This document shows, piece after piece, positions 52,604 through 55,519 of a DNA stretch of 64,000 bases (positions are counted from its first letter, which is position 1; each line of letters starts with the position of its first letter). This stretch comes from Methanobacteriaceae archaeon. GTDB taxonomy: Archaea; Methanobacteriota; Methanobacteria; Methanobacteriales; Methanobacteriaceae. The DNA is taken from contig JAQXTL010000007.1 in NCBI GenBank assembly GCA_029219465.1, positions 62,001-126,000 of the forward strand, in the 5' to 3' direction. The notes under the pieces were generated by a model. That model was not told the DNA's origin and did no database searches. It saw nothing but the letters and a program-made list of their open reading frames with translations. The translations under genes and the position numbers were made by a program.

Positions 52604-53887
52604 TTAAATTTTATCCAAAGCTTGGTCTACATCAGCTAAGATATCTTCAATATCTTCAATACCAACAGAGAACCTGATTAAGTCTGGAGTTACACCAGTA
52701 GCTTTTTGTTGTTCTGGGGTAAGTTGGGAGTGGGTAGTTGATGCAGGGTGGATAACTAATGACTTAGCATCTCCGATGTTTGCTAATAATGAGAGTAATT
52801 CAACGTTTTCGATGAATTTAATAGCACCATCGTATCCAGCTTTAAGACCGAATGAAACGATTCCACCATAACCTTTTTCAGCATATTTTTTAGCTACTTC
52901 GTGGTTTGGAGAGGATTCTAATCCGGAATAAGTTACCCAAGCAACTTTTGGATGTGCTTCTAAATGTTTTGCAACAGCTAATGCATTTGAAGCATGCTTT
53001 TCAATTCTAAGACCTAAAGTTTCTAAACCTTGTAATAACAAGAATGATCCAAATGGAGAAGGTACAGCACCAGTGTCTCTTCCGATAACTGCTCTGATTC
53101 TAGTAGTAAATGCAGCTCCTTCGAGTTCTCCAAATACTAAACCGTTGTAGGTTTCATCAGGATCAGATAAGGTTGGGAAGTTACCGTTTAACCAGTCAAA
53201 GTCACCTTTTTCGATGATAATTCCACCAAGAGTAGTACCGTGACCACCGATGTATTTGGTTGCAGAGGAGGAAATAATATCTGCACCATGGTCAAATGGT
53301 CTTACAGATCCAATACCAACAGTGTTATCAGCAATTAATGGAATTCCGTGAGAGTGAGCAATTTCTGCAATCTTCTCAAAGTCAGGAATATCGAGTTTTG
53401 GATTTCCAATAGATTCCACGTAAATTGCTTTTGTTTTATCATCAATAGCTTCTTCGAATAATTCTGGAGATTGTGAGTCCACAAAGGTTACGTCACGTCC
53501 TAATTCTTTTAAGGTATTTTCAAATAACTCAAAGGTTCCACCATACAAGTTATCTGCAGAAACGATGTTATCTCCAACTTGGGTTAAATTGATAATAGTG
53601 TAAAAGATTGCGGACATTCCACTAGCTGTAGCGTATGCTGCACTTCCACCTTCAATTGCAGCCATCCTTTTCTCAAATGCTTCAGTAGTAGGATTAGTAA
53701 GTCTTGTGTATATGTTTCCGCCTTCTGCAAGAGCAAATCTGTTTGCAGCTTGTTCAGGAGAGTCGAATACATAAGAAGTTGTTTGATAGATTGGTACAGC
53801 ACGTGAACCAGTTTCGTCAACTTCTTCTTGACCCGCATGAAGGCCAATAGTTGAAATATTTTTTTTATTTTTTATTTCATATGCCAT
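52604..53887 (-). CDS. metY: O-acetylhomoserine sulfhydrylase (MetY type)
   Basis: About 427 residues of the Cys/Met-metabolism PLP family. STIGLHAGQ, YTRLTNPTTEAFEKRMAAIEGG and SSATKYIGGHGTTLGG (Schiff-base Lys) match O-acetylhomoserine/O-acetylserine sulfhydrylases rather than cystathionine gamma-synthases. It makes homocysteine (or cysteine) from sulfide. ATG 53887 follows GTGATTAAT. A TATA-like TTATATATA lies about 60 bp upstream, and the palindrome array starts just beyond it, so regulation is likely elaborate. Confidence 0.9.
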   Translation of the reverse strand: MAYEIKNKKNISTIGLHAGQEEVDETGSRAVPIYQTTSYVFDSPEQAANRFALAEGGNIYTRLTNPTTEAFEKRMAAIEGGSAAYATASGMSAIFYTIINLTQVGDNIVSADNLYGGTFELFENTLKELGRDVTFVDSQSPELFEEAIDDKTKAIYVESIGNPKLDIPDFEKIAEIAHSHGIPLIADNTVGIGSVRPFDHGADIISSSATKYIGGHGTTLGGIIIEKGDFDWLNGNFPTLSDPDETYNGLVFGELEGAAFTTRIRAVIGRDTGAVPSPFGSFLLLQGLETLGLRIEKHASNALAVAKHLEAHPKVAWVTYSGLESSPNHEVAKKYAEKGYGGIVSFGLKAGYDGAIKFIENVELLSLLANIGDAKSLVIHPASTTHSQLTPEQQKATGVTPDLIRFSVGIEDIEDILADVDQALDKI

Positions 53888-53958
53888 ATTAATCACATAA
53901 TTTATTTTGTAAACGTAAATATAAGAATATACCTATTTTTGGTATATATAATTTTTTT

Positions 53959-54323
53959 ATAACAATAGTTATATTTAATTTTATAGAGAATAATAAAATT
54001 TCCTCTACAATATAACAATTGTTATTATTAGTATATAAATATTTTGGAGACTATAACTAAAACATATCTGCAATATAACAATTGTTATTTAATAGTATAT
54101 AAAAATATTGTAGAATGTATTGAAATTACATCTACAATATAACAATTATTTTTTTGTACATGAATAGTTTGTAGAAAGTACATCTACAATATAACAATTG
54201 TTATTTTTAGTATACAAATATTATGGAGAATAATACTTAAAAGTCACATGAAAATATAACAATTGTTATTATTAAATGTGTATAGAATATAATAGAAATA
54301 ATTCTATATATAACAATTGTTAT
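53959..54323. repeat. Array of seven phased palindromic repeats upstream of metY
   Basis: ATAACAATTGTTAT occurs exactly at 54012, 54075, 54191, 54256 and 54310, and in diverged form at 53959 (ATAACAATAGTTAT) and 54139 (right half lost). Centre spacings are 53, 63, 64, 52, 65 and 54 bp, near five or six turns of B-DNA. Most units also carry TCTACAAT before the palindrome and a TATA-like AGTATATAAAT 6-7 bp after it. The first copy abuts the metY TATA region. The array fills the metY upstream gap, 53888-54367. It could be a tandemly amplified promoter-operator, a binding platform for an oligomeric regulator (Lrp-like, for example), or a nucleoid or segregation site. Confidence 0.85.
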
Positions 54324-54367
54324 TATTAGTATATAAACGTTTTGGCTAAATATAGTTAAAATACAAT

Positions 54368-55519
54368 TTACAAATCAAAAAGATCTTTAATATCCATCAT
54401 CAAATCAACAATATCAACATTAAATGGACATCTTTCTTCACAATCACCACATGAAATACAGTCACCTGCATGATATTTTAAATCTGAATAATGTTGTTTG
54501 ATACTTTCAGGAACCTCATCATGATTTTTTGCAAGATCATAGAATTTAATCGCCATTGCAATGTTAATTTGAGAAGAACAAGGAGCACAGTGTCCACAAT
54601 AAGTACACTGACCTTCAAATGAATGTTTAGGAGCGTTTTTTAACACATGAGTATAATCTTTTTCATCATCTGTTGCATCACAGTATTTTATAGAATCCTC
54701 AAGTTCACTAACATTATCAACACCAACAAAGATACTGGAGACTCCTTTTTGTTCTAAAGCATAATGAATACATTGAATAGGAGTTAATGCAACACCAAAT
54801 GGAGATATTTCATCACTTAATAAATTACCACCGGCAAATCCTTTCATTGCTGTTAGAGCAGTACCAGTTTTTTCACACAATTCATAAAGTTCTACTCTTT
54901 TAGGATTAATGGAAGATAAACTATCATCATCAAAAACACCCTCTTTTCTATATTCCCAAATATCCTCCATTGTACCGAACATATCAAAAGCAGGATTCAT
55001 AGAAAACATTATTGATTCAATTTCAGGGTTTTTAGCAGCTAGAATACCAATATCAGGATTGTGAGTACTAAGTCCAATGTGTTTAATTGTTCCTTCTTGT
55101 TTTAATTTGCGAACATACTCCATAAAAGGACCGTTCATAATTTCATTATAATCATCAATTTGATCAACATAATGAATCATTCCAAAATCAAGAGTATCTA
55201 TTTGAAATCTTTGCATAAAGTCTTCAAAAGCAGGAATTACCTTATCCATATCACGTGATTTAACATACTGGTTGTTTTGCCATGTAGCACCGATATGACC
55301 CTGGATAACCCAAAAATCACGATTAGGAGCTATTGCTTTTCCAAGGTGTGAGCGTACATCAGGTTCACTCATCCAGCAGTCAACAAAATTAATCCCATTT
55401 TCCTCACAAGCCTTAATTAAAGCTTCACTATCTTCATAAGGCCTTTCAACCATATACTCAGCACCAAAAGCTATTTTTGATACTTCAATTCCTGTGTTTC
55501 CTAATTTTTTATATTCCAT
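54368..55519 (-). CDS. Aldo/keto reductase with C-terminal 4Fe-4S domain
   Basis: 383 residues. The N-terminal TIM barrel has the family Asp, Lys and His regions (YKKLGNTGIEVSKIAFG, GMIHYVDQ, IKHIGLSTH). The C-terminus has CTYCGHCAPC and CISCGDCEERCPFNVDI, giving ferredoxin-like clusters. Family members reduce aldehydes or ketones with electrons from ferredoxin or NADPH; the substrate is unknown. It lies upstream of metY on the same strand, but the 480-bp repeat array separates the two transcripts. Confidence 0.85.
   Translation of the reverse strand: MEYKKLGNTGIEVSKIAFGAEYMVERPYEDSEALIKACEENGINFVDCWMSEPDVRSHLGKAIAPNRDFWVIQGHIGATWQNNQYVKSRDMDKVIPAFEDFMQRFQIDTLDFGMIHYVDQIDDYNEIMNGPFMEYVRKLKQEGTIKHIGLSTHNPDIGILAAKNPEIESIMFSMNPAFDMFGTMEDIWEYRKEGVFDDDSLSSINPKRVELYELCEKTGTALTAMKGFAGGNLLSDEISPFGVALTPIQCIHYALEQKGVSSIFVGVDNVSELEDSIKYCDATDDEKDYTHVLKNAPKHSFEGQCTYCGHCAPCSSQINIAMAIKFYDLAKNHDEVPESIKQHYSDLKYHAGDCISCGDCEERCPFNVDIVDLMMDIKDLFDL

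Follow-up and report, generated by a model that had tools for sequence, protein, structure and literature searches.

Seven palindromes in the metY promoter region of a Methanobacteriaceae archaeon, most likely an amplified promoter-operator of a sulfur regulon

Tandem promoters and homotypic operator clusters line up several promoters or operators ahead of a single gene. In Methanothermobacter thermautotrophicus, the repressor TrpY acts on TRP boxes in overlapping promoters and also controls its own gene (PMC6737238). As a repressor of amino-acid biosynthesis in a related methanogen, acting through operator boxes, it resembles the system described here (PMC6737238), but, compared by description, it serves another pathway through another operator, and that source reports no seven-unit promoter-operator array. 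MsvR is a methanogen-specific regulator whose DNA binding is modulated by cysteines (PMC3729527). The present archaeal locus differs from tandem promoters and operator clusters in general in that its repeat unit, present up to seven times, is an entire BRE-TATA-operator module; a separate genus shows the same. A literature search covering few subscription journals found no paper on the palindrome operator or its regulon.

We analyzed a 64,000-nucleotide stretch of contig JAQXTL010000007.1 (the window), from a gut methanogen assembly of 21 contigs, and report repeat copy numbers as assembled. The sulfur-assimilation gene metY (52604..53887, minus strand, ATG at 53887) encodes a member of the O-acetylhomoserine sulfhydrylase family (TIGR01326, above cut-off) and is the gene that the array would control. 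The spacer between it and an aldo/keto-reductase-like gene (54368-55519, minus strand) had a GC content of 17% and contained seven copies of the palindrome ATAACAATTGTTAT, five exact and two diverged, spaced 53, 63, 64, 52, 65 and 54 bp apart. These positions and distances were identical to those given in an earlier note on this DNA. Markov models trained on the metY spacer itself predicted 0.0005-0.001 exact copies and 0.08-0.17 near copies (up to two mismatches) per 471 bp, against five and seven seen. The copy nearest metY, U1 (ATAACAATAGTTAT, one mismatch; 53959..53972), stands just upstream of a proximal TATA-like ATTATATATA recognized by inspection (53943..53952, minus strand). Beyond it lie the exact operators U2 (54012..54025) and U3 (54075..54088), the diverged U4 (ATAACAATTATTTT, two mismatches; 54139..54152), and the exact U5 (54191..54204), U6 (54256..54269) and U7 (54310..54323), the last being farthest from metY.

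On the metY strand, a TATA box was located 6-7 bp ahead of the palindrome in four of the seven units. The earlier note had described a TATA-like motif after most copies and a recurrent sequence before them; the former held for the copies at 54012, 54075, 54191 and 54310, and the latter, TCTACAAT or TCTGCAAT, stood ahead of four copies. In U7 and U2, the order was a BRE-like CCAAAA(T/C)(A/G) (CCAAAATA in U2), the TATA box TTTATATA (54330..54337 and 54032..54039, respectively, minus strand), six bases and the palindrome. The arrangement of ATAACNATNGTTAT 6 bp after TTTATATA was therefore exact in these two units, while U5 carried one TATA mismatch (TTTGTATA; 54211..54218, minus strand) and the TTTATATA of U3 (54096..54103, minus strand) lay 7 bp ahead of its operator. 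This arrangement was absent from U6, U4 and U1; the TATA was degenerate in all three, and promoter function may therefore not extend to every copy. Judging from general archaeal promoter geometry, the palindrome would lie between the TATA box and the expected transcription start, with the start just past the palindrome end, and the units would thus form a tandem promoter-operator. The exception is U1, which is upstream of the proximal TATA ATTATATATA and not downstream of a TATA. The presence of several copies with a putative promoter of their own suggests that the metY switch was built by multiplying one module. The linkers following the operators (ATTGTAGATGTA and variants) were mutually related, and the array therefore probably grew through duplication, most operators staying exact. 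Intervals measured 63-65 bp ahead of the TATA-bearing U5, U3 and U2 and 52-54 bp ahead of the TATA-poor U6, U4 and U1. Across the units, a long interval went with an intact TATA and a short one with a degenerate TATA. U4, the sole diverged internal operator and one with a degenerate TATA, also had the shortest interval (52 bp).

Elsewhere in the same genome, exact copies of the palindrome were rare: five of the six were in the metY array. In a reading of the regulon locus by locus, near copies preceded the cysK-cysE-HTH genes (two sites), nifS-nifU, comA with a methanogenesis-marker-16 gene, and pdxS, and certain copies preceded genes with no clear sulfur link. Of these genes, cysK, cysE, nifS and comA, like metY, serve sulfur or cysteine metabolism. 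A random scatter of the repeats over the genome was rejected, because the exact copies cluster at metY and several near copies precede sulfur genes. Within the genus, TTTATATA-N6-ATAACNATNGTTAT (at most one mismatch) was found in 53 of 67 genomes, compared with 0 for the control. The palindrome preceded cysK-cysE, metY paralogs, nifS and a tusA-like gene across the family; operator pairs were located ahead of cysK, metY, nifS and the tusA-like gene in other genera, and single operators and 20-bp pairs were found at other sulfur genes. Of 137 gene-oriented contexts, among which orthologs are not independent, 38 had a TATA starting 14 bp ahead of the operator, against a mean of 0.6 per position. 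Methanobacteriaceae genomes commonly contained 3-18 palindromes versus 0-4 for the control, and a single match was found among 12 genomes of two other families. These sequence associations suggest that a sulfur/cysteine regulon of Methanobacteriaceae has the palindrome as its operator. An Rfam search of the metY leader gave no riboswitch or leader RNA match up to E 1, and that reading of the leader was rejected.

In the sampled loci, the genus motif was mostly ahead of metY2, a second paralog about 60% identical to metY. Close orthologs of the window metY (about 90% identical) lacked operators, and metY2 carried them in most such genomes. A metY2 was not found in the genome of the window; the operator here thus stands at the paralog where it is usually missing. 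Among 42 related metY loci scanned, a copy within 900 bp was present in only five: those of RUG020, three Methanosphaera records and an unclassified record of the Methanobacteriaceae. At the ortholog of the window metY, one or two copies were found in RUG020 and in some of the Methanosphaera records. Conservation of the array at orthologous metY was therefore rejected. The earlier note had proposed conservation in relatives as a test, and the outcome was divided: the operator is conserved, but the seven-copy array is not, with no operator at the close metY orthologs. In another genus (g12), the metY of G088 was preceded by three BRE-TATA-operator modules 116 and 127 bp apart, with a fourth operator 77 bp further on, and that of G091 by a similar module set interrupted by an assembly gap. 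In neither did the linkers resemble those of the window; the arrays therefore look independent, and amplification seems to recur. The nifS promoter of G091 (L205) was a two-module repeat, each module combining a TATA with two operators spaced by 19 bp.

The best candidate, and the most likely binder of the palindrome, is a 124-aa HTH protein whose gene (L017:5615-5986, minus strand) belongs to the cysK-cysE operon and has operators of its own in front, as co-distribution and gene neighbourhood suggest. The protein was present in 125 of 151 Methanobacteriales genomes and absent from the two other families sampled, and a search beyond the family with a 25-sequence profile gave weak matches only. 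Both the protein and the motif are essentially limited to Methanobacteriaceae. Clusters of cysK-cysE, the regulator gene and cysS with operators ahead recurred in several genera. Counting against the assignment, Methanosphaera-type genomes retained the regulator with no cysK-cysE nearby, and two genomes (G021 and G012) had the regulator and zero ATAACNATNGTTAT matches; their operator may have diverged. The score against HTH_3 was 23.1 bits, a marginal pass of the Pfam gathering cut-off of 23. The HTH, a stretch ITQPA-SQY--DKRG and five cysteines (C5, C89, C92, C115 and C118) were invariant among 25 relatives. Attempts to name the protein by sequence failed, with no match in NCBIfam or among PDB sequences. 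The AlphaFold model was all-helical (pLDDT 82), and its PDB fold matches were weak (best E 0.34). The top weak folds included Cop, ClgR, C.BclI, DdrO and lambda repressor, which, with the marginal HTH_3 score, gives the protein a likeness to XRE/HTH_3 (lambda-repressor-like) regulators; it differs from them in a cysteine-rich C-terminal part that lacks a solved or named relative. Like MsvR, set beside it by description, it would be a methanogen regulator with cysteines, but MsvR is described for the redox response (PMC3729527).

The array most likely represents a promoter of a sulfur regulon, amplified and under repressor control. In our main reading, with a probability of roughly 0.7, it is a tandemly amplified promoter-operator that drives metY, the palindrome is the operator of the sulfur/cysteine regulon, and the 124-aa HTH protein probably binds it. 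An amplified promoter-operator had been one suggestion of the earlier note and is well supported by the TATA-6 bp-palindrome modules that read toward metY, and further by the module ahead of sulfur genes family-wide and the parallel array in the other genus. A full module runs from a BRE-like sequence through a TATA box and a gap of 6-7 bp to the palindrome. The five invariant cysteines could form an Fe-S or other thiol-sensing site, and the protein would repress when the supply of cysteine, sulfide or Fe-S is sufficient and release the operators when it falls. The multiplied modules would then offer several metY promoters once released and near-complete shut-off under repression. More broadly, and only tentatively, we propose that Methanobacteriaceae may regulate sulfur assimilation with an undescribed cysteine-rich HTH repressor and may repeatedly have gained stronger and steeper metY control through multiplication of the entire module (seven sites here, four in the other genus), copy number setting output and cooperativity. 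For sulfur control in the main gut methanogens, this work puts forward an operator, a candidate regulator and a list of genes. It further provides a natural example of promoter-operators multiplied repeatedly, where direct tests of copy number, phasing and output are possible.

The same operator and array might instead serve an activator, or a protein other than the HTH protein of the cysK-cysE operon. The placement of U1, upstream of the proximal TATA, is one that archaeal activators also use, and the HTH protein, whose binding is predicted, is without a solved or named relative. We consider this alternative unlikely, since the commonest operator placement, between TATA and start, is typical of repressors and the HTH gene lies within the regulated operon and shares the taxonomic range of the motif. 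A recent tandem duplication with no selected function, too young to have been lost, would fit the absence of the array at close metY orthologs and the degenerate TATA in three units; yet the linkers have diverged while five operators are still exact, and another genus carries a metY array of its own, which makes it quite improbable.

Phasing on the DNA helix bears on a further explanation, in which a cooperative oligomer bends or wraps the phased operators into one repression complex and the distal TATA boxes are duplication leftovers. This is compatible with the amplified promoter-operator, but phasing, and not promoter number, would be decisive. The earlier note had placed all sites on one DNA face, which held at a pitch near 10.6 bp/turn (R 0.92) but not at exactly 10.5, where the sites drift (R 0.66). 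At free pitch, p was 0.003-0.01, a value valid only if the six spacings are independent; they fall into just two classes, which are linked by duplication. The classes are 11 bp apart, as are the two steps in G088 (116 and 127 bp). For 35 representative spacings of the family, picked by hand, the mean cosine was 0.34 at 10.6 bp/turn (p 0.0025; 0.008 minus the window array), and p was 0.007 at 10.5 (0.022 minus the window array). Orthologous metY2 pairs varied, at 63-70 and 85-91 bp, and G091 had a step of 121 bp. These findings suggest a modest phasing tendency in the family and not a rule. With spacing tolerated at metY2 and only two classes here, the oligomer wrapping phased DNA that the earlier note had suggested is possible but weakly supported, and we regard it as rather unlikely to be the deciding feature. 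The repeat of 52-65 bp might also reflect archaeal histone particles and no regulator, as the DNA protected by an archaeal histone tetramer is about 60 bp long (PMC3691661). However, nucleosomes are depleted in A/T-rich sequences and intergenic regions (PMC3691661), which does not suit an intergenic spacer of such low GC content, and the single operators and 20-bp pairs at other sulfur genes also argue against histones, making this explanation highly improbable.

Two genomes carried the palindrome in a different setting. About 14 pairs or triplets were found in G145 (L295-L299) and about five in G146 (L300). Those inspected were 23-24 bp apart, within a repeated element starting CTCTGTCAAAAATTTGG and often near contig ends, which looks like an insertion element with the operator at its edge.
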